Assembly (NCBI RefSeq): GCF_012931685.1
Contig: NZ_JABANC010000007.1
Location: 18,023 to 82,022 of the forward strand
Length of the DNA: 64,000 nt
Direction: 5' to 3'
Origin: Hanstruepera ponticola
GTDB lineage: Bacteria; Bacteroidota; Bacteroidia; Flavobacteriales; Flavobacteriaceae
The notes beneath the pieces are model-generated. The model was not told where the DNA came from and did no database searches. It was given only the letters and a program-made list of their open reading frames with translations. The translations under genes were made by a program, and so were the position numbers. This document shows positions 1 through 13,180 of this stretch, one piece after another (positions within the stretch are counted from its first letter, which is position 1; each line of letters starts with the position of its first letter).

Positions 1-28
1 GGCGTATATGACGAAAGAATTTAATCAT
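1..28 (-). CDS. DUF6090 family protein, N-terminal fragment cut by the window edge
   Basis: Nine codons are visible, reading MIKFFRHIR, which is the start shared by the paralogs to its right. The ATG (28-26) overlaps the stop of the preceding gene in the ATGATTAA arrangement seen at other junctions of this array. The rest lies outside the window, so length and integrity are unknown. It shows that the array continues to the left and has at least ten members. Confidence 0.8.
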
Positions 29-764
29 GCTTATCTTTTTGAGCATTCAAGATATCTAAAAGCTCCTCTGTCTTTGCTAAAACTTCTTTAGTTAAACCAA
101 GATAACGATTAATCGCATGGTTATTTACCAATAAGGCGTTTATGTAATGTGGTGCAAGTTTAACTGGATCAACATTTCCCCATAGCTGTTCAGCTAGTGC
201 TTGATTTATATCCTCACCCAAAACATAATTTTCCTTATAACTACTATAGAGGCTAAAATAGGAATTTCTATTACCGTTAGAAACCCCAATCTCAAATGCT
301 TGAAGCCGATTAAGCTCCATAATTTCTTGAATAATAAAATCCTCAAACAAATCAATATTGCCAGTAGAAGTTAAAATGTTAAGCGTATTAGTATTATACG
401 TATTCATTGTTCTCAAACCTATTAACCCCGAAATTTGAGCCATATTTTTAACATCTTTGGCTTTTGTTGTTGGTTCTTTAATAACTGCCAACAAAGAATC
501 TGAATGCTTTACAAAGCCCTCTTCATTCTCTTTGAGTCTAGCATTTAATTGAATGGTATCTTTAGTGAGATCATTTATTAAATTTTGAACGTAGACTTGT
601 TTAAGCTTATTTTTTTTGGAAGCTTCATACCAAGTGTTAACTTGAAGTGCTATCAATATACCAATAACAACAAGAACAATTTCGCCTAAAGCATATTTAA
701 GATATCTACCTGTTTTATTTTCCATAACTAGAGATTGGCGTATATGACGGAAGAATTTAATCAT
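21..764 (-). CDS. DUF6090 family single-pass membrane protein (array copy 1)
   Basis: 247 aa. A basic amphipathic start (MIKFFRHIR) is followed by one hydrophobic helix at about residues 25-43 (GEIVLVVIGILIALQ), then about 200 polar, probably helical residues. The basic N-terminus suggests cytoplasmic N and periplasmic C. The tail carries the second family motif at about 124-151 (NTLNILTSTGN then a hydrophobic pattern). This copy has NTW where most have NNWN after the helix, and lacks the D-S-L motif near residue 101. The last 8 bases overlap the next gene. The family is recognised as DUF6090, common in flavobacteria and without known function. Confidence 0.85.
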   Translation of the reverse strand: MIKFFRHIRQSLVMENKTGRYLKYALGEIVLVVIGILIALQVNTWYEASKKNKLKQVYVQNLINDLTKDTIQLNARLKENEEGFVKHSDSLLAVIKEPTTKAKDVKNMAQISGLIGLRTMNTYNTNTLNILTSTGNIDLFEDFIIQEIMELNRLQAFEIGVSNGNRNSYFSLYSSYKENYVLGEDINQALAEQLWGNVDPVKLAPHYINALLVNNHAINRYLGLTKEVLAKTEELLDILNAQKDKHD

Positions 765-1491
765 TTAACTGCTGTATGTAATCAGTACAAATTTCTATTG
801 TTTCAATATTTAATTGTAGTAGTTCTTTTAGCTCTTGATTATTACTTAAGGCAAAGTTATTTACGAGCCTGTTTTGTATTTCATTATCTTTGATTATGTC
901 ATTGAGTAGATTTTGATCTATGATTTCATGGGTAATAAATAATCTGCCATTAGTTTTTTCATAAACTAAATCTCGCATAATATTCCTATTTTCAACATAA
1001 TTTTTGCCTGTGTTTTCTTCCATACTGTCATAGGCATTGTAAAGCTTTAGTATTTGACTCCTTAACATTTCATCTTTGATGAGCGAAAGTCCACCAGCAT
1101 TTTTCACTTCTTCTATGGCTCCCTTGTTAGGAACAAAATTTTGGATACTACTAAATATGCCCCTCAAAAAGTGAATAGATAGTGAATCTGGTTTTCCCGT
1201 TTTACCATCAAAATAGTCGAGCAATATGTGTTTTGAATTCACAATTTTGTTTGAAACCATTACCAAATCTGTAAGATTCTCAGCATCAGACTGTAAGTCT
1301 TGCGTAAGTAACTCTACATAGTTTTGTTCTAGTTTTTGTTCTTTACTTCGTTGATTCCAGTTATTTATTTGAAGTGCAATTAAAATACCAATAACCACAA
1401 GGATGATTTCGCCAATGGCATATTTAAAGTACTTTGCAGTCTTGTTTTGATTCATTAGGTCGTATCTGATTTTTCTAAAAAACTTAATCAT
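757..1491 (-). CDS. DUF6090 family single-pass membrane protein (array copy 2)
   Basis: 244 aa. N-terminal block MIKFFRKIR, then NKTAKYFKYAIGEI leading into the membrane helix (about 25-43) and NNWN. A PDSL motif lies near residue 101, and the second motif at about 122-154 reads as GAIEEVKNAGGLSLI followed by a leucine-rich helix ending in Y. It starts inside the stop region of copy 3 and its own stop lies inside the start of copy 1, with 8-base overlaps at both ends, so translation is probably coupled. It ends in Asn-Asp, which the overlap dictates. Function unknown; a periplasmic or envelope role is inferred from topology alone. Confidence 0.85.
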   Translation of the reverse strand: MIKFFRKIRYDLMNQNKTAKYFKYAIGEIILVVIGILIALQINNWNQRSKEQKLEQNYVELLTQDLQSDAENLTDLVMVSNKIVNSKHILLDYFDGKTGKPDSLSIHFLRGIFSSIQNFVPNKGAIEEVKNAGGLSLIKDEMLRSQILKLYNAYDSMEENTGKNYVENRNIMRDLVYEKTNGRLFITHEIIDQNLLNDIIKDNEIQNRLVNNFALSNNQELKELLQLNIETIEICTDYIQQLND

Positions 1492-2272
1492 TTATTTCTG
1501 TATCAATTAATTGTATTAGGTTTTCAATAAAATGCACTAAATCTTGATGCAAACCAGCCAGAAAACTGTTATTCATAAAAGCAAGCCTTAATCCATTATT
1601 AAAAATTTCATTGTTATGCTGCCACTGTGCATCTTCAATAAGTTTCGCGTGATTGGGTATTGGAATTTCGTCGCTACTTAGTCGTCTGGGTAATCCATAA
1701 GCCGGTTGTTTTAAATCAAAAAAATTAAGTGCGCTCACATTATTAACATGCGTATCATATAAATACACCTCATATTCCCTCCTCATATGATGTTCTCCCG
1801 TTTCAATACCTGCATATAGCTTTTCTAATTCTAACAACCCATTTTTTATAGAGTCGTTTTTTATCAAGCTCAAATTTCCTGAACTTAATAGTTCTTTAAA
1901 TGTATTATTATTAGGAACAAACGTATTCCATATAAAAACAAGCTCATAAGTATCGGTGTAATCTTGAACAGCTTCAATAGAATTTGGCGCCATTGAGTTT
2001 AACAATAGAGAACTAGCTTCAGCTTTTTTGAATCTATAATCTGCAAATTTCTTATTATTCTTAAGTTCGCTTTCTAAATCAGATTTTAAGTTTTGAAGAT
2101 AATTTATTTCTTTAAGTCGTTCTTTGCGTAATTCATTCCAGTTATTAATTTGAAGCGCTATTAGAATTCCAATAACGACAAGGACAATTTCACCAATGGC
2201 GTATTTAAAATACTTGGATGTTTTATTTTCCATGAGTAATGATTTTCTGATATCACGAAAAAATTTAATCAT
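1484..2272 (-). CDS. DUF6090 family single-pass membrane protein (array copy 3)
   Basis: 262 aa, the longest copy. The N-terminal 46 residues match the family block, with DIRKSLLMENKTSK before the helix. The stretch at about 50-95 is charged and looks like coiled coil. The second motif at about 121-154 contains TFKELLSSGNLSLI and NDSIKNGLLELEKLY. The extra length lies in the C-terminal third, about residues 160-230, which has proline- and histidine-containing segments with no counterpart in copies 2 or 4. 8-base overlaps occur with both neighbours. Family DUF6090; function unknown. Confidence 0.85.
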   Translation of the reverse strand: MIKFFRDIRKSLLMENKTSKYFKYAIGEIVLVVIGILIALQINNWNELRKERLKEINYLQNLKSDLESELKNNKKFADYRFKKAEASSLLLNSMAPNSIEAVQDYTDTYELVFIWNTFVPNNNTFKELLSSGNLSLIKNDSIKNGLLELEKLYAGIETGEHHMRREYEVYLYDTHVNNVSALNFFDLKQPAYGLPRRLSSDEIPIPNHAKLIEDAQWQHNNEIFNNGLRLAFMNNSFLAGLHQDLVHFIENLIQLIDTEIND

Positions 2273-3023
2273 TTGATTCTAAATTTAAAACAGTATTGAT
2301 CTGCTCTATACCCTGTAAATTATCATCTAAATATCCTTTTGAAATATGATGCAAAACTTCAGTGTGATTCTTTATGGCATTAATATAATACTTGTAGGCG
2401 TTATCATTCAATATGCTTTCATAATCTGCTACTTGTGCTGTTCCGCTAACATATTTTCCATCTGTAATTTGAATAGGATACCACACACTAAAATAATTTG
2501 AAGCTTTGTTAATTCTAAAATCTTCAATTTGGTCAATAGCAGTTTGTTCCATTTGGCGCAACCAATTGAGGTTGCCTTCATATATTCTAAATATCAAATC
2601 TCTCAATTCCAAATCAGATATTAAGTCTAATCCTTTAGATTCAATAGTTTTATACGCACCAGCATTAACAATAAATTTTGTCCAAACAGCAGTATTAGCA
2701 AAATGAACTTTTAGAGTATCTGAATATGGCAATTTTTTATTTATATGATTTACTATTACATTCGAAGATTCTATCAAATTTTCTTGCATTCTAATATTGA
2801 ATTTTAAATCTCCAGAATTTCGCTCTAGATCATTTTTAAGCTGAATGAGTAGTTGTTTTTCATAGTTATCTAACTTTCTTTTTTCGTTCCAATTATTTAC
2901 TTGAAGTGCAATTAAAATACCTATAACCACGAGTATAATCTCTCCTATAGCGTATTTGAAATACTTACCTGTTTTTCCTGTTTCCATAAGTTTAAATCGG
3001 ATTTTTCTGAAAACTTTAATCAT
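2265..3023 (-). CDS. DUF6090 family single-pass membrane protein (array copy 4)
   Basis: 252 aa. It begins MIKVFRKIR (V for F at residue 4) and has METGKTGK where others have MENKTSK. The helix is at about 25-43. The motif YSDTLKVHF lies near residue 100, and the second motif at about 121-150 reads AGAYKTIESKGLDLIS then LRDLIFRIY. With copies 7 and 8 it forms a subgroup sharing G/S-AY at the start of this motif. It ends in Asn-Asp and overlaps copy 3 by 8 bases. Upstream it is separated from copy 5 by only 2 bases rather than overlapping. Confidence 0.85.
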   Translation of the reverse strand: MIKVFRKIRFKLMETGKTGKYFKYAIGEIILVVIGILIALQVNNWNEKRKLDNYEKQLLIQLKNDLERNSGDLKFNIRMQENLIESSNVIVNHINKKLPYSDTLKVHFANTAVWTKFIVNAGAYKTIESKGLDLISDLELRDLIFRIYEGNLNWLRQMEQTAIDQIEDFRINKASNYFSVWYPIQITDGKYVSGTAQVADYESILNDNAYKYYINAIKNHTEVLHHISKGYLDDNLQGIEQINTVLNLESND

Positions 3024-3025
3024 GG

Positions 3026-3805
3026 TTAGTCTTTCAATTCTTTATTAATAGCAAAAATTAAGCTATCAGAATAGTTAATAATTTGTTCCATCTTTTTGAA
3101 ATTAGCCTGTTGACCACCTTCAATTAAAGCCAAACCAATTTGTATGTTTTGGTATTTTTCTGAATTTTTATCAAAAAACCAAGTGTAGTTATTAATTTTA
3201 AAATTTAGACTGTCTTTATTATAGTCAAGTATCATTTTATAATATCCATCTCGCATAATACGAAATCCCTCGCGCATAGTTTCTGAATTTCCTTTGTTGT
3301 ACAATTCCTCTCTTTCACAGCGTTTATAATATTTTTTAATAGCATTTATTAGTGAATCAGACCCGATAGTATAGAGCTTTCCTGTATTAATTAATTCCTC
3401 ATATGTACTATTATGTAAATTTAAATAGGCTCCGCCAGCACCCAGATTGTTATTTAAAATAAATTCCAAATCAGATTCTTGCAAACCTCGATACGTTAAT
3501 TTAAATAATGAGTCACAGTTAGAGAGTGCCTTTTCTAATGGTATATAATTTTTTGGTAGTTCAGCAGATTCAAAAGCTAAAATCTTCATACGATTTTTAT
3601 TCATTTCTAAATCGTTAATAATTTTCTCCAAAAAGACCTTATTGCTCGATTTCATAAGCCTTTTTGAGTTCCAATTATTTATTTGAAGTGCCAATAAAAT
3701 GCCGATGACAACCAGAACAATTTCTCCAATAGCATACTTAATATATTTACTGGTTTTATTTTCCATTAGTAATGACTGCCGTATGTGGCGAAAGAATTTA
3801 ATCAT
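3026..3805 (-). CDS. DUF6090 family single-pass membrane protein (array copy 5)
   Basis: 259 aa. N-terminal block MIKFFRHIRQSLLMENKTSK, then the helix at about 25-43. The second motif is shifted about 10 residues later than in most copies (about 132-160, STYEELINTGKLYTIGSDSL) because of an insertion before it that includes LGAGGAY. Its central and distal segments are more basic than in the other copies. The ATG overlaps the stop of copy 6 by 4 bases (ATGA). It ends KELKD and stops 2 bases before copy 4 starts. DUF6090; function unknown. Confidence 0.85.
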   Translation of the reverse strand: MIKFFRHIRQSLLMENKTSKYIKYAIGEIVLVVIGILLALQINNWNSKRLMKSSNKVFLEKIINDLEMNKNRMKILAFESAELPKNYIPLEKALSNCDSLFKLTYRGLQESDLEFILNNNLGAGGAYLNLHNSTYEELINTGKLYTIGSDSLINAIKKYYKRCEREELYNKGNSETMREGFRIMRDGYYKMILDYNKDSLNFKINNYTWFFDKNSEKYQNIQIGLALIEGGQQANFKKMEQIINYSDSLIFAINKELKD

Positions 3806-4545
3806 TTTTCGAGTTTTTCTATTTCTTGATCTATTTTAGAAATTAGGTTATTGGCCTTTTTATTAAAGTTTTCAAATCTTTTATATGACCTTAACTGCCT
3901 GTAGCCTATTTCTGTACAAACATTATAAAATTCTTCATCTTGCATCATGGTTTCGTAATCAGTAGGAACATACGGCAAATATTCCTGGTTGAGTGTTATA
4001 TTTCTACGTAGATACTTTTTTGCAAGTGGTAGAAATAATGTTGTATTAATTTGATTCATACTTGACATGTCTGAATTATCCAAAATGTCCATTTCAACTT
4101 CAATGAGATTGATAATTTCTCTTCTTAATGGTGTACTAGATATTAGATTGACGCCAATACTTTTAAGGTTTTCAAATCCAGCATAGGTGAAATCCGGGTC
4201 CCAATAACCCGAGAAATTAGAAAAATAAACCAGCAAACTGTCATTAAAGGGCGTTTTGTTTTCGTAAAATTCTATGATTTTTGTATTATTAGATAGGCTG
4301 GATTTTGTATGCTTAATGCCTTCTGTTAAATTACTAATATTATCTTTAAGGTCACTTTTTATATCCTTTAAGATACTTATTTCTAGTTGTATTTTTTTTC
4401 GACTTTCGTTCCAATTATTTATTTGCAAGGCAATCAAAATACCTATAACAACCAGAACAATTTCACCAATAGCGTATTTGATGTATTTACCAGTTTTGTT
4501 TTCACTCATAAGGTTTAAGCGTATTTTTCGAAAAAAATTAATCAT
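3802..4545 (-). CDS. DUF6090 family single-pass membrane protein (array copy 6)
   Basis: 247 aa. It starts MINFFRKIR, the only copy with Asn at residue 3. The helix is at about 25-43, NDSLLVYF near residue 101, and the second motif at about 121-150 (YAGFENLKSIGVNLIS then LRREIINLI). WDPD just before this motif is shared in part with copy 9 (WDPS), which suggests those two are related. The start overlaps the copy 7 stop by 8 bases; the stop overlaps the copy 5 start by 4 bases. Function unknown. Confidence 0.85.
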   Translation of the reverse strand: MINFFRKIRLNLMSENKTGKYIKYAIGEIVLVVIGILIALQINNWNESRKKIQLEISILKDIKSDLKDNISNLTEGIKHTKSSLSNNTKIIEFYENKTPFNDSLLVYFSNFSGYWDPDFTYAGFENLKSIGVNLISSTPLRREIINLIEVEMDILDNSDMSSMNQINTTLFLPLAKKYLRRNITLNQEYLPYVPTDYETMMQDEEFYNVCTEIGYRQLRSYKRFENFNKKANNLISKIDQEIEKLEK

Positions 4546-5293
4546 TTAAATTCATTAATTCTATATTTATTTGGTCTAAACACTCTAATACTTTCGCTTC
4601 CAAATTTCTGTAGTTATTTAACATATATACTCTCAAATCTTCATTCATCACTAACGCATTTTTAAATTCTTCGTCTTTTTTAAGGGCTTCAAAATTTATT
4701 GGTCTGCCTAACTGCTCACCTGCTTTGAGGTCTTTGCTTAAATCTTTCTTCACAGAAATTCTCTTTAACACAGCTGGCATAACAATTTGATATTGTAATG
4801 CATGGTCGTCTTGGATTTCAAAATCAATGACATTTTGATAATGAAATGAATAAAGCTTCGTAATTGTCTGCCGCAAATCATCATTTGAAATAATTTCAAG
4901 TCCGCGAGATTTTAGAGTTTCATAGGCACTATAATTCACAACAGATCTTGTGGTATATAGCAGACTTCCGTAATAAACATCTAACGAGTCTGAATACGCA
5001 TCTTGCTCATTTAGGCTTTGCAAAACGACTTGACAGGCCTTCAGTCTTATCTTATTAAACTCTATATTAAACCTAACATCTCCTAGGTCAGTTTGTAAAT
5101 TATTTGCAATTTCTTGCAGATATTTTATTTGAATTTTCTTTAGCTGATTGTTATTATTCCAATTACTAACTTGTAATGCTATTAGAATTCCAATAACAAC
5201 GAGGATAATTTCACCAATGGCGTATTTGAAATACTTACCCGTTTTATTTTGTTCTAGAAGTGATTTGCGGATATGTCTAAAGAATTTAATCAT
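4538..5293 (-). CDS. DUF6090 family single-pass membrane protein (array copy 7)
   Basis: 251 aa from the ATG at 5293. An in-frame ATG further upstream (5314) would add seven residues before the invariant MIKFFRHIR and would overlap copy 8, so the internal start is preferred. Helix about 25-43; YSDSLDVYY near 100; second motif about 121-150 (YSAYETLKSRGLEIIS then LRQTITKLY), very close to copies 4 and 8. It ends LND and overlaps copy 6 by 8 bases. Copy 8 ends 4 bases upstream. Function unknown. Confidence 0.85.
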   Translation of the reverse strand: MIKFFRHIRKSLLEQNKTGKYFKYAIGEIILVVIGILIALQVSNWNNNNQLKKIQIKYLQEIANNLQTDLGDVRFNIEFNKIRLKACQVVLQSLNEQDAYSDSLDVYYGSLLYTTRSVVNYSAYETLKSRGLEIISNDDLRQTITKLYSFHYQNVIDFEIQDDHALQYQIVMPAVLKRISVKKDLSKDLKAGEQLGRPINFEALKKDEEFKNALVMNEDLRVYMLNNYRNLEAKVLECLDQINIELMNLND

Positions 5294-5297
5294 TGTT

Positions 5298-6026
5298 TTA
5301 TATTGTTTTATCAATAAGTGAAATGATATCTTCGGCTTCTTTAATAATTGGTACTATTACTCTATAGTTATTCCAATAAATATCACCTTCAATATCCAGT
5401 AATTTTAGTAAGTCTTTATTAGATTTTAAGTCCTTTGTATTTAAGCGAGCTCTTACATACCAAGTTTTTCCATTTACATAACTAAGTTCAAGAACCTTTT
5501 CACGTAATTTCACCCTTTGAGTGTACGTTTCGTTATATTCTTTAATAAGTTCTTTACCACGTGGCAACCTATTTTCATAAAAACGTATCAATCTATTTCT
5601 TAATGAATCATTAGTTATTTTATCTAAACCTATTGCTTTTAAAGATTCGTATGCACCTTTATCATATGTAAAAAGTATACCTGTACTCGCATCATTAAAA
5701 TTCTTTCTAATAATACTATCATGTGCTTTTTCATTACTGTGCATATTTTTTATCAAGTTCTCTATTCCCTTTCTTTTCGGTAATATTCGCTCTTCCAATA
5801 TGGATTGATTTCGTTCTAAATCTAGTTGTATAGAAGTTTTAATTTCTTTTAAAATTTTGGTTTGAAACTGGTTGCTTTTTCGGTTTTCATTCCAATTGTT
5901 AATCTGCAAAGCAATGAGAATACCAATAACCACTAGAAAAATCTCACCTATGGCGTATTTAAAATATTTGGATGTTTTATTTTCCATAAGGAGTGATTTA
6001 CGAATATGACGGAAGAATTTAATCAT
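5298..6026 (-). CDS. DUF6090 family single-pass membrane protein (array copy 8)
   Basis: 242 aa from the ATG at 6026, which gives the family start MIKFFRHIRKSLL. An in-frame ATG at 6053 would add nine residues unlike the family and lies in a short tandem duplication. The helix at 25-43 has IFLVVIG. HDSI lies near residue 102, and the second motif at about 122-151 reads GAYESLKAIGLDKITNDSLR. It lacks the C-terminal Asn-Asp because its stop does not overlap copy 7. A 55-base gap separates it from copy 9, so a separate start of transcription here is possible. Function unknown. Confidence 0.85.
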   Translation of the reverse strand: MIKFFRHIRKSLLMENKTSKYFKYAIGEIFLVVIGILIALQINNWNENRKSNQFQTKILKEIKTSIQLDLERNQSILEERILPKRKGIENLIKNMHSNEKAHDSIIRKNFNDASTGILFTYDKGAYESLKAIGLDKITNDSLRNRLIRFYENRLPRGKELIKEYNETYTQRVKLREKVLELSYVNGKTWYVRARLNTKDLKSNKDLLKLLDIEGDIYWNNYRVIVPIIKEAEDIISLIDKTI

Positions 6027-6057
6027 GATTATACATTTTACATGATTATACATTTTA
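6024..6057. repeat. Perfect 17-bp tandem duplication at the start of array copy 8
   Basis: CATGATTATACATTTTA occurs at 6024-6040 and again immediately at 6041-6057. The first copy contains the start codon of the gene at 5298-6026 (reverse strand). The second lies in its leader and adds an out-of-frame ATG upstream. Confidence 0.9.
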
Positions 6058-6081
6058 ACTATAGAAACAAAAACTCACAGA

Positions 6082-6825
6082 TTAATCCTCATAGGTTTCG
6101 CATTCACTTATTATTTCAAGATGCAATTGCTTGGCATCGTTATAGAATCTCAAAATAAATCTATTCTGAAAAACCCTATTTACCAAAACATTCTCATAGG
6201 ATTTTAATTTAAGAAGTTCTTCATTAGAACCTTCAAAATTTGAAATGCCGTAGCCCAATGGATCTCCTGAAGTTAAGTTTTTCACAATAGCATGTTCTTC
6301 CAAATACTCAAAATATTTTTTTCCTCCCGAAATATAAAAATCGTACCAGCTTAACAAATTGCTGTAAAAACTTTCCCACTCAATCAATCGTTCCTTTAAA
6401 TTATTATTGGAAAGCTTAGAAAGTTTTCCAGAATTCTTTATGTTACTCAAAGTGTATAGACTAGGATCCCAAACTGCCATCCTGAAGGTCATTCCAATAA
6501 GGCTATCAACTTTCCCTAAATCGCCTTCCATGTAGTCTGGACCAATATGGTCTAATAAAACATTTCCTGCATTGATAAACGCTTCCACATTACTCATATT
6601 AGACTCTAGATCGATTAAGTTCTTCTGGAATTCCAACTTAAGACTAGCTATGGTTGCTTTTTCTTCTTTTAAGGTTTTTCTACCTTCATTCCAATTGTTG
6701 ATTTGGAGCGCAATGAGAATACCAATAACCACAAGAATGATTTCGCCTAAAGCATACAGTAAGTATTTAGAAAACTTGTTTTCTGCCAATAGGTGTTGGC
6801 GTATTTTTCTGAAGAATTTAATCAT
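6082..6825 (-). CDS. DUF6090 family single-pass membrane protein (array copy 9, first in the array)
   Basis: 247 aa. This is the promoter-proximal copy if the array is one transcript. It is the most divergent at the N-terminus: NKFSKYLLYALGEI where the others have NKTxKYxKYAIGEI. Helix about 25-43; WDPS at about 119-122; second motif about 121-154 (LSNIKNSGKLSKLSNNNLKERLI). A short region with a possible -7 element (6846-6853) and the terminator of the upstream gene lie before it. The family resemblance is clear; function is unknown. Confidence 0.85.
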   Translation of the reverse strand: MIKFFRKIRQHLLAENKFSKYLLYALGEIILVVIGILIALQINNWNEGRKTLKEEKATIASLKLEFQKNLIDLESNMSNVEAFINAGNVLLDHIGPDYMEGDLGKVDSLIGMTFRMAVWDPSLYTLSNIKNSGKLSKLSNNNLKERLIEWESFYSNLLSWYDFYISGGKKYFEYLEEHAIVKNLTSGDPLGYGISNFEGSNEELLKLKSYENVLVNRVFQNRFILRFYNDAKQLHLEIISECETYED

Positions 6826-6845
6826 ATAGTTGGCTGTTTTATGTC

Positions 6846-6853
6846 TAAAGATA
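6846..6853 (-). promoter_or_regulatory. Possible -7 promoter element for the DUF6090 array
   Basis: On the minus strand this reads TATCTTTA, one base from the Bacteroidota consensus TAnnTTTG, about 20 bases before the copy 9 ATG. No TTG is seen at the -33 position, so support is weak. Confidence 0.35.
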
Positions 6854-6867
6854 AGTAATTTATAAAA

Positions 6868-6895
6868 TAAAAAAAGCCAGCTTAAAAACTGGACT
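6868..6895 (-). terminator. Rho-independent terminator after the barrel-like protein gene
   Basis: On the minus strand CCAG...CTGG forms a short hairpin followed by CTTTTTTT. It lies between the stop at 6921 and the DUF6090 array, so the array is probably a separate transcription unit. Confidence 0.6.
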
Positions 6896-6920
6896 TCAAT
6901 TATTTATCAATAAATAAAAC

Positions 6921-10294: not shown

Positions 10295-13180
10295 TTATTG
10301 GTTGGTTGGTGCTAGTTGTGCTTCTATTTTTTCAATCCTACTCGATAAGGTTTCAAAATTTTGCAATTTTAACTTTAAAGCCTCAATTTCTTTTTGTTGT
10401 TGCTCAATACGTTTTTGTTGTTCTTGTGTTGCACTTACGTTCAACATACTAATGGCGTCATAATCCACACTATGAAAATCTTCTACTTGACTACCAAATA
10501 CAAATATTTGATTACCAAAATCATTAGTAGTTTTTTTAATAACTAAAGACTTCTCTGAAACTTTTAATACTTCAGCCAAAACCTCTATATTATCTTTAGT
10601 AACAAGTTTAATGGTATCTCCTTTTGAGAGCGAAATTGACTTTGAAAATTGCAATGACATATTTCCATTATTCAATTGTTTTACTGTAGCAAGTTGGTAT
10701 ACGTTAGGGATAAACTCTGTTGATAGATTTACAGCATTTGGCAATACTTCTTTTACTTGTTGTGCTATAACTTTTTTAGACACCATATCGCCTTTCATTT
10801 TATAATCTTTAAAGCTATAATCTGTAATTTCTATATTCATTAGGCTTTTTAAATCCTCTTTGCTATCACTAATACCAACGATGTTTTTAATACGTTCATC
10901 AGAACCCGTTGCAAAACCAAGAGATGAGAACATAGCTCTTGAAGCCGCAATACTGTACGTCCATCCTGAACCATTTGCACCATAACCAACACTAGCATTA
11001 AGGTAGTATGCTGGTGCACTATTAAGCCCATTAATAAATGAGGTAACATGCAATGGGTAAGATGGTGTAGTTGTACCAATACCCACATTACCATTTTTTA
11101 AAATAGTTAAGGCATTAGATCTTGAAGTATTACTTAATCCATTACCTACTTCAAAAATAGGATCAGTTCCAACATGAACTGTAGGATTTCCTGGGGCTCC
11201 AACATTAAATAGACCAATAGAAAACGCACCTACACTTTCCGATCTTGTACCATAACCGTGAGCTGAAGCATAATAACCTTTTGCAGAGGAATTAAATCCG
11301 GAAGTGAATGCATAATTTCCCATAGGACCATTTCCAACACGATATGGATTTCCTGTCGCTTGCGTAACCACTTCACTAGAAATAGAAAGATCAACTGCTT
11401 CAAATCCAAGACTACCATGACGTGTAAGATCACGTCCAATTAATCGAAAACCAGCCGTACCACCACCATCATCAACTATACGCTCCAAGCCCGTTGGGTT
11501 TGTTATTGTTGGTTGATTGGTTAAGTCGTTATAGTCGCCGCTAAATGTTGCATCAATATAATTTGCATCAGCATATTCTTTTGTTATTAAGGCTTTATTA
11601 TTTGTAATTTCAGAAATATCAAAGGATGGTGCTGTTATGGTCCCATTTTTAAGAACTGTAAGCGCATTAGAACTCCCAAAAACTCCATTTCCAATTTCAA
11701 ACAAGGGGTCTGTAGATACCCAAGCTGTAGTGTTACCTCCACCAACATTATAACGTCCTATAGCAGTTGAAAAACTAGCAGTAGCTTCTGTTTGGTTTCC
11801 CATTGCTACTGAATTAACACCAGATGCTTCTGTATTTAATCCCATTGCAGTAGAATTTTCACCAGAAGCAATTGTGCTGCGTCCCAATGCGGTAGATGTA
11901 ATACCAGAAGCTGTTGTACTTAGGCCCATTGCCGTAGAGTGAATAACCGATGCATTGGTACCAGCTCCCAATGCTATTGAATAATCACCTGAAGCAATTG
12001 TACCATTCCCGATTGCAAATGCATTAATTCCAGATGCTTCAGTATTTAATCCAATTGCAGTAGAATTTTCACCCGTTGCTCCACGAGTACCACTTGCACT
12101 ATTTGAATGACTATGATCTACTGCATTTAAACCTATATTTCCATAGTTTGCAGGGTTTCTACCAATTAATCGCCAACCAACTCCATTCCCTTCATCTATA
12201 GCTGCTAAACCTGTTGGGTTGGCACCAAGGTAATTGGCATCTGCATATTCTTTTGTTATTAAGGCTTTATTATTTGTAATTTCAGAAATATCAAAGGATG
12301 GTGCTGTTATGGTCCCATTTTTAAGAATTGTTAACGCATTGGATCTTACGGGAAAAGTTTGGCCGTTACCAACTTCAAAAATTGGATCTGTAGGAATCCA
12401 TGAATGATTATCACCAGTTCCAATATTCAGAACTCCAACGGCAGTTGATCTATATGCATCAGCATTTACATAATATCCCATTGCTGTGGAATTGTCACCA
12501 GAAGCAATTGTATTCCGTCCCATTGCAGTGGAAGTATTTCCTGAAGCTGTTGTACTTAGGCCCATTGCCGAAGAGTGAATAGCCGAAGCAGTTGAGCCAG
12601 CTCCAATTGCCATTGAATAATCGCCTGAAGCGATAGTACCATTCCCGATTGCTAATGCATTAATTCCAGATGCTTCAGTATTCAATCCAATTGCAGTAGA
12701 ATTTTCACCCGTTGCTCCACGAGTACCACTTGCACTATTTGAATGACTATGATCTACTGCATTTAAACCTATATTTCCATAGTTTGCAGGGTTTTTATCT
12801 ATTAACCGCCAGCCTATACCATTGCCTTCATCAAGAGCTTCCAAGCCTGTTGGGTTAGTGCCTAAGTAATTGGTGTCTCCATAATTTTTTTCGATTAAAA
12901 ACACCCAAGATGTTGTGGCGTTATCCCAATAATAAAACCCTTTGGCAGGCGCACCATTACCAGTTGCATATACCAGCATGCCGTCTTGATTGGCTCCAGG
13001 GTTACTTCCTGGAAACTCATCTATTTTAGGGATTAACAACCCATCTGTATTTTCGGGAGTAGCCTGGTTTGATGACTGAATGTCTAAACTTGCCGAAGGG
13101 CTTGTAGTACCAATACCCACTTGTGCAATGGTTATTTGAAATATTAAACTAAACAGGGCAACGATATATCTAGCTTTCAT
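10295..13180 (-). CDS. Secreted fibre/adhesin-like protein with YadA-head-like repeats and a C-terminal S74-type chaperone domain
   Basis: 961 aa. A signal peptide (to about residue 19, IAQ) is followed by VGIGTTSPSASLDI, typical of Bacteroidota tail-fibre-domain proteins. Residues about 104-540 are two copies of a 210-225 aa unit rich in 14-residue steps such as AIGxxTxASGxNS, the pattern of trimeric YadA heads; a diverged third unit follows. From about residue 759 SDERIKNIV begins, the signature of the peptidase_S74 intramolecular chaperone, which in phage fibres cleaves itself at the Ser. A coiled coil (EQQKRIEQQQKEIEALKLKL) ends the protein. Trimerisation and surface display are inferred. 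It lies directly downstream of a two-component pair on the same strand. No phage structural genes are nearby. Confidence 0.75.
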   Translation of the reverse strand: MKARYIVALFSLIFQITIAQVGIGTTSPSASLDIQSSNQATPENTDGLLIPKIDEFPGSNPGANQDGMLVYATGNGAPAKGFYYWDNATTSWVFLIEKNYGDTNYLGTNPTGLEALDEGNGIGWRLIDKNPANYGNIGLNAVDHSHSNSASGTRGATGENSTAIGLNTEASGINALAIGNGTIASGDYSMAIGAGSTASAIHSSAMGLSTTASGNTSTAMGRNTIASGDNSTAMGYYVNADAYRSTAVGVLNIGTGDNHSWIPTDPIFEVGNGQTFPVRSNALTILKNGTITAPSFDISEITNNKALITKEYADANYLGANPTGLAAIDEGNGVGWRLIGRNPANYGNIGLNAVDHSHSNSASGTRGATGENSTAIGLNTEASGINAFAIGNGTIASGDYSIALGAGTNASVIHSTAMGLSTTASGITSTALGRSTIASGENSTAMGLNTEASGVNSVAMGNQTEATASFSTAIGRYNVGGGNTTAWVSTDPLFEIGNGVFGSSNALTVLKNGTITAPSFDISEITNNKALITKEYADANYIDATFSGDYNDLTNQPTITNPTGLERIVDDGGGTAGFRLIGRDLTRHGSLGFEAVDLSISSEVVTQATGNPYRVGNGPMGNYAFTSGFNSSAKGYYASAHGYGTRSESVGAFSIGLFNVGAPGNPTVHVGTDPIFEVGNGLSNTSRSNALTILKNGNVGIGTTTPSYPLHVTSFINGLNSAPAYYLNASVGYGANGSGWTYSIAASRAMFSSLGFATGSDERIKNIVGISDSKEDLKSLMNIEITDYSFKDYKMKGDMVSKKVIAQQVKEVLPNAVNLSTEFIPNVYQLATVKQLNNGNMSLQFSKSISLSKGDTIKLVTKDNIEVLAEVLKVSEKSLVIKKTTNDFGNQIFVFGSQVEDFHSVDYDAISMLNVSATQEQQKRIEQQQKEIEALKLKLQNFETLSSRIEKIEAQLAPTNQ
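11571..11655. repeat. 85-bp exact direct repeat within the adhesin gene, copy A
   Basis: Identical to 12243-12327, 672 bases away. It encodes the end of each large unit (ITAPSFDISEITNNKALIT region). Such identity favours recombination between units. Confidence 0.9.
12048..12158. repeat. 111-bp exact direct repeat within the adhesin gene, copy A
   Basis: Identical to 12684-12794, 636 bases away. It encodes the NPANYGNIGLNAVDHSHSNS part of the large unit. Confidence 0.9.
12243..12327. repeat. 85-bp exact direct repeat within the adhesin gene, copy B
   Basis: Second copy of 11571-11655, identical over the whole length, then diverging at 12328. Confidence 0.9.
12684..12794. repeat. 111-bp exact direct repeat within the adhesin gene, copy B
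   Basis: Second copy of 12048-12158; single mismatches appear just outside both ends. Confidence 0.9.

Follow-up and report, generated by a model that had tools for sequence, protein, structure and literature searches.

In Vibrio cholerae, arrays of orphan immunity genes of the type VI secretion system (T6SS) are horizontally acquired, mosaic by homologous recombination, and variable in content among strains; they are located at T6SS clusters, their genes match cognate immunity genes, and their breakpoints are reported as not confined (PMC5361080). The rAID arrays of gut Bacteroidales are recombinase-associated and hold orphan immunity genes, known members of which neutralize T6SS effectors (PMC12247911), and in polymorphic toxin systems a constant part is joined via recombination to diverse C-terminal domains (PMC3482391). 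We analyzed a 64,000-nucleotide (nt) stretch of Hanstruepera ponticola DNA (contig NZ_JABANC010000007.1, positions 18,023 to 82,022; hereafter, the window), at the left end of which lies an array of ten genes of the DUF6090 family. Each gene codes for a conserved, predicted membrane anchor followed by a variable outer domain. The V. cholerae arrays are the closest kind: DUF6090 genes are likewise transferred and mosaic, with synonymous divergence of outer domains far below background. Unlike in V. cholerae, no T6SS was found here (VipA in 0/60 relatives, no recurring effector-like neighbor), and most change points fall within the anchor code. Like the rAID arrays, DUF6090 arrays occur in Bacteroidota and consist of orphan genes for which protection is a proposed reading, but no recombinase was noticed among their neighbors, where no recombinase profile search was made. 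They share with polymorphic toxins a constant part joined by recombination to diverse C-terminal domains, except that their variable parts, instead of being toxins, are predicted to form periplasmic bundles held by a membrane anchor. Taken as a whole, the proposal that the ten genes form one of several arrays of a modular family of predicted membrane proteins, whose set of outer domains likely shields the envelope, strikes us as close to an even call.

The sequence-only reading of this DNA had described nine complete genes and the start of a tenth, and this was borne out. Nine complete DUF6090 open reading frames (ORFs) occupy positions 21 to 6825 of the window, all on the minus strand, and all nine proteins exceed the Pfam curated cut-off of 23.5 bits (PF19578) by which we defined membership, with scores of 25.5 to 49.1 bits. 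The leftward extension that the same reading had called for was run, and the array ends just outside the window: to the left of the tenth gene lie a helix-turn-helix-type gene, a membrane-protein gene, and a gyrB-like gene (names read from translations only), so the edge is reached and the total is ten genes. Five of the nine joints are 8-bp overlaps (ATGATTAA), in which the stop of one gene and the start of the next share bases; one is a 4-bp overlap, and three are gaps of 2, 4, and 55 nt. The listed starts 5314 and 6053 are probably too far upstream, and positions 5293 and 6026 are preferred by analogy with the other members. No exact match to the flavobacterial promoter consensus was found in the 95-nt leader. 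The features are as follows (lengths in amino acids [aa]; pLDDT, predicted local distance difference test).

1..28, minus strand: start of the tenth DUF6090 gene, the rest of which lies outside the window (L021:9317-10051, 244 aa)
21..764, minus strand: DUF6090 gene, 247 aa, 47.7 bits
757..1491, minus strand: DUF6090 gene, 244 aa, 29.7 bits, modeled with pLDDT 93
1484..2272, minus strand: DUF6090 gene, 262 aa, 49.1 bits
2265..3023, minus strand: DUF6090 gene, 252 aa, 37.3 bits
3026..3805, minus strand: DUF6090 gene, 259 aa, 25.5 bits
3802..4545, minus strand: DUF6090 gene, 247 aa, 44.3 bits
4538..5293, minus strand: DUF6090 gene, 251 aa from the likely start 5293 (listed ORF, 5314), 35.2 bits
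5298..6026, minus strand: DUF6090 gene, 242 aa from the likely start 6026 (listed ORF, 6053), 37.3 bits
6082..6825, minus strand: first DUF6090 gene of the array, 247 aa, 34.3 bits, modeled with pLDDT 91
6826..6920, minus strand: 95-nt leader, in which a hairpin resembling the terminator of the upstream gene is followed by a stretch likely to hold the array promoter (by eye)
4538..4545, minus strand: example of the 8-bp ATGATTAA stop/start overlap, also present at 21-28, 757-764, 1484-1491, and 2265-2272

We then compared the histories of the two gene parts. The anchor code was taken as the protein-conserved first ∼48 codons (∼150 nt), whose invariant residues include G35 and A39, and flanking genes cut at the same codon served as controls. 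Congeneric members were paired by reciprocal best outer-domain match, and divergence was expressed as the Nei-Gojobori synonymous proportion (pS). The analysis excluded pairs that were below 60% identity or aligned over too few codons, as well as ORFs containing N and identical ORFs in overlapping loci; duplicate rows were removed from the pooled pair table, while the sets for flanking pS, for 60 to 80% identity, and for the ratio of nonsynonymous to synonymous proportions (pN/pS) still hold some. Among congeneric pairs from three genera with outer-domain identity of at least 80%, pS was larger in the anchor than in the outer domain in 49/50 cases, against 47/97 of the controls, and counting by independent families gave 33/34 and 16/43, respectively. 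The excess was seen in all 37 Hanstruepera pairs (medians of 0.68 versus 0.36; flanking controls, 34/61), in 8/8 pairs of a second genus (controls, 2/6), and in 4/5 pairs of a third (controls, 11/30). When both groups were matched for an outer-part pS below 0.3, the 26 DUF6090 pairs had an anchor median of 0.57 and the 11 control pairs one of 0.19, and this gap means that the selection of pairs by outer domain does not explain the anchor excess. A conserved start that is older at silent sites than the variable end is not expected of a gene with a single history. Of 70 comparisons in the first Hanstruepera set, 50 placed the anchor DNA nearer to that of a same-genome paralogue than to that of the outer-domain partner. 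These comparisons show that anchors and outer domains have separate recent histories.

Change points were computed only for pairs picked for low outer-domain and higher anchor divergence. In 24 of the 30 selected pairs the best change point fell at nt 60 to 190 of the gene (median, nt 114), and in 17/30 it lay no more than 12 nt from the end of the membrane motif. A two-gene block common to the genome that holds the window (G000) and the congener G001 has 30-nt identities of 0.83 to 1.0 (mostly 0.93 to 1.0) over both outer domains and of 0.54 to 0.87 over the ∼150 nt of anchor between them; the G000 copy of this middle anchor carries a 27-nt in-frame insert. A 16-nt core of the insert occurs four times in G000, always in an anchor, with unlike outer domains, and at two array sites. 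It thus seems that anchors, too, are exchanged independently.

We considered a dispersed repeat as the source of the insert and rejected it, since the core (at most one mismatch) was found only those four times in G000, all in anchors. Palindrome-like, GC-rich in-frame inserts occur in two genera, with unlike sequences, 27 nt long in G000 and 30 nt long in G028; both sit at the same anchor codon, directly before the G-K/R-Y motif. The positions of the inserts are as follows.

L022:11491, 13194, 15523; L028:7172; L044:5510, 6292, 7158; L046:6589: in-frame anchor inserts

The outer domains were examined for transfer. Flanking genes of the congeners have a median pS of 0.61 to 0.67 against G000, and the lowest outer-domain values are 0.05 (G000 versus G004) and 0.08 (G000 versus G001). 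A pS below 0.3 was found in 16/58 Hanstruepera DUF6090 pairs and in 4/63 controls. Between genera, outer-domain pS was below 0.5 in 8/20 pairs, with a minimum of 0.17, and the lowest of 79 controls was 0.58. These values show transfer of outer domains between species and between genera. The array sites have conserved flanks and a gene content that turns over: one outer-domain type that G000 has at site A occupies site B in three congeners, and another that G000 has in L030 occupies site A in three congeners. Outer domains at least 60% alike within one genome are nearly absent (0/2163 pairs in Hanstruepera, 1/6163 overall), which means that arrays do not grow by recent tandem duplication. At the congeneric sharing rate, which includes vertical orthologues, 20.2 alike pairs would be expected in Hanstruepera, and none was seen. 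As judged from these counts, recent duplicates of outer domains are absent within genomes, and we claim nothing stronger. Genes near site A are themselves unusually alike between G002 and G004 (pS of 0.14 to 0.17, against a genome-pair median of 0.37; L039:343, 720; L050:1351, 1728), as if recombination of the arrays sometimes carried the flanks along.

The G000 genome (3.18 Mb) contains 48 Pfam matches, 46 of them above the cut-off and none with an internal stop, and an ORF count over the fetched G000 loci gave 49 members. With these matches, and none in 14 control genomes, the window array is not a chance occurrence. Other G000 arrays have 12 genes (L022) and 5 genes each (L028 and L030), and the remainder are pairs and singles. 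The sequence-only reading had named, as an outcome that would argue against a system, relatives with only single unlinked copies; instead, the four Hanstruepera congeners carry 12 to 43 matches (at least 37 in G001 and at least 43 in G002, with 46 candidates scored; 29 in G003; 12 in G004), many of them in arrays. The member sets drawn from these congeners cover 30 of at least 37, 28 of at least 43, 17/29, and 5/12 matches, respectively. The anchor motif used to collect members missed some (one cluster of seven in the neighbor survey), and a relaxed motif still omitted ORFs, six candidates being listed. Across the family Flavobacteriaceae, 234/397 genomes had matches, with at most 8 candidates scored per genome; counts reached 77 (G394), 56 (G330), and 55 (G426), noncongeneric relatives span 0 to 77, and isolated single genes also occur. 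Close DUF6090 neighbors lie on the same strand in 337/339 cases. Among adjacent same-strand pairs of the first set (177 members), 37 of 143 had the ATGATTAA-type 8-bp overlap and 18 a 4-bp overlap; the full set (506 members) gave 74/389 and 51/389. The family probably matters to its hosts, since about 49 genes of a 3.2-Mb genome belong to it and one relative holds as many as 77.

From these results, we propose that pieces coding for outer domains pass between species and come to sit behind differing copies of a shared 48-codon anchor piece. Members have ∼150 nt of similar code at the same reading position, and crossovers there would keep the frame; incoming DNA with unlike outer domains could thus be taken up between two anchors, and outer domains could be added, swapped, or deleted. 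The breakpoints make homologous recombination at the repeated anchor code the most likely mechanism. The genes of an array would be expressed together, and the ATGATTAA overlaps would couple their translation. In the least certain step, each outer domain would block one envelope-directed attack (a toxin, bacteriocin, or phage factor) by a bacterium or phage. This step is suggested by the transfer of outer domains, the turnover of content at fixed sites, the presence of a single domain of each kind per genome, a predicted position outside the membrane, and the lack of an output domain and of a steady partner gene. We nevertheless regard a function as orphan immunity-like shields of the envelope as rather doubtful. 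Somewhat less tentatively, it is possible that flavobacteria have an integrase-free cassette system in which the anchor code is the joint, with outer domains of other species and genera caught in frame behind resident anchors, translated from coupled arrays, and kept as a heritable, updatable repertoire of shields with a single copy of each kind. Chromosomal integrons are large sets of mostly different cassettes in one orientation. DUF6090 collections are likewise large, mostly different, and co-oriented, but their apparent joint is the genes' own anchor coding sequence, and integrase and attC, for which no search was made, were not noticed. What seems to be new is that the membrane-anchor code of each gene serves as the joint, and that this occurs in a family for which no function has been described; a literature search that did not extend to subscription papers and most preprints found no paper naming DUF6090. 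The separate travel of anchors and outer domains turns what was an annotation gap into a testable system, and if the outer domains do protect the envelope, marine flavobacteria would hold a broad interspecies defense repertoire that needs no dedicated mobile-element machinery.

Several observations weigh against this proposal. Regarding the separate histories, one of the 50 close pairs runs the opposite way, and Hanstruepera pairs with 60 to 80% outer-domain identity show no anchor excess (7/21); this is expected, as both parts near saturation, and limits the claim to recent history. The window array has no pair with at least 80% outer-domain identity, so the sharp test of exchange rests mainly on its sister arrays, and its three pairs gave anchor/outer pS values of 0.76/0.56, 0.60/0.60, and 0.75/0.84. 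Concerted evolution of anchors within a genome was rejected as slight: anchor identity was 0.757 within the same array and 0.744 between genomes, a difference reached by 0/1000 label shuffles, and the nearest anchor was in another genome for 78/109 array members. Given how slight this homogenization is, exchange among a pool of anchors replaced the idea. Selection-enforced nonredundancy is not claimed either, with 1 alike pair seen and 3.8 expected from the cross-genus sharing rate (P of 0.1). Regarding distribution and function, 24/60 relatives have matches and 36/60 lack the family, and outer domains are under purifying and not diversifying selection (median pN/pS of 0.13; controls, 0.10). 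No recurring toxin-like partner was found among 333 neighbors or 68 tightly adjacent genes. VipA scored above the cut-off in none of 60 genomes, G000 included, with 3 weak matches, in a search that a divergent T6SS could escape. MACPF did so in 2/60, both belonging to another family, and PADLOC gave one weak match in 1/9 proteins (SP_VI, E value of 0.0014, 24 residues).

AlphaFold models of two members (757-1491 and 6082-6825) have an anchor helix that runs into a periplasmic helical bundle. The predicted topology places the N terminus inside; a short helix in the cytoplasm precedes a single membrane helix, which extends outward, and the periplasmic bundle follows. Both models stop in the last bundle helix, and a second membrane helix and a cytoplasmic output domain are absent. 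Foldseek gave no match at an E value of 0.001 or below, the best hit of a PDB sequence search was an uncharacterized protein (E value of 0.0084), and NCBIfam gave no match above its cut-off. In an alternative reading, the members form a repertoire of sensors or ligand-binding proteins, with bundles that bind small molecules or stress cues and act via a shared membrane partner touching the anchor. Just as in the four-helix-bundle sensors of chemoreceptors and kinases, the membrane helix continues into a periplasmic bundle, but those sensors have the second membrane helix and the output domain that the two models lack. We consider such a repertoire unlikely. Among the collected members are 20 long ones of 338 to 426 aa with an extra C-terminal domain (L022:6673-7731 and 19 others); 8 of them weakly match DUF3471, and one matches CIA30 and carbohydrate-binding models.

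The sequence-only reading had offered two explanations for so many co-oriented copies. One, a hetero-oligomeric envelope assembly, would have members assemble via the constant anchor into mixed complexes that set an envelope property. A single shared anchor with invariant residues such as G35 and A39, and the likely cotranslation of overlapping genes, would suit it. The site of the window array is common to G002 (L040), which also has ten genes there between the same flanks, and 2/10 outer domains of the window array have a partner of at least 60% identity in that syntenic array. Two others had their best match, among the collected members, at site A of G001 (61%) or G003 (59%). This is not a fixed set of subunits, copy number runs from 0 to 77 among relatives (36/60 without a match), and isolated single genes exist; an obligate assembly of fixed subunits is thus disfavored, optional co-assembly via the shared anchor would be compatible with these data, and we hold hetero-oligomers in general to be quite improbable. 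The other explanation, in which one anchor is combined with different outer domains to give a store of variants, finds support and is sharpened by the separate histories of the two parts: the store consists of intact, overlapping genes and not of silent copies. The relatives of gene 6082-6825 (P0122-P0173, at least 55% protein identity) have differing anchor classes, e.g., ENKFSKYLLY, TGKTSKYLKY, and ENQMGKYFKY.

A silent store for phase or antigenic variation, from which one expressed member would receive the outer domains of the others, would share the constant start, the variable end, and recombination at the start. Silent cassettes of the pilS or vls type are partial copies without a start of their own, whereas all ten genes of the array have starts of their own and complete open frames; all 48 G000 matches are open, joints overlap, and outer domains are under purifying selection, which makes this alternative very improbable. 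Ordinary lineage-specific tandem duplication and divergence, with an anchor merely under stronger protein constraint, is hardly credible despite the single family, the single orientation (337/339), and the protein-conserved anchor, as constraint cannot produce a synonymous excess in 49/50 close pairs, recent duplicates hardly occur, and an insert is common to four unlike genes; these points contradict it for the recent history of three genera, although it may account for the remote origin of the family.

For the proposed exchange of outer domains at the anchor code, we also looked into possible carriers and neighbors. One member used as a query had no match in 50,697 phage records or in 72,556 plasmid records, and none of the 83 pattern matches returned by a profile search of IMG/VR was confirmed; this argues against mobile elements as the usual carriers. 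The 333 neighbors formed 259 clusters. Leaving aside Hanstruepera synteny, no non-DUF6090 cluster extends beyond four genomes, and those that reach four consist of esterase-like, serine-hydrolase-like, and membrane acyltransferase-like genes (named by reading); the serine-hydrolase-like gene is tightly adjacent only in G000 and G140. The most widespread cluster among the 68 tightly adjacent genes is a DUF6090-like gene that carries a different anchor, with six copies in five genomes.

Some genes inside the arrays were recorded in passing. DUF6090-like genes with the other anchor type (L081:4223 and L049:2011-2694) hint at a second anchor class. A membrane acyltransferase-like gene (by reading) lies inside the site A arrays of three Hanstruepera genomes and in an array of G019 (L036:12703-13947, L039:7250-8527, L042:6050-7294, and L052:9354-10643), and the G019 copy starts with MTKLFRKI, resembling a leftover DUF6090 anchor. 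Inside site B of G001 and G003 is a small GIY-YIG-like nuclease gene (by reading; L037:8917-9270 and L043:7304-7657), the copies of which are nearly identical (pS of 0.06 to 0.10). Elsewhere in the window, positions 10295 to 13180 code for a protein of 961 aa in which YadA-head-like motifs recur and the C-terminal part resembles a tail fiber chaperone, as read from the translation with no search made.

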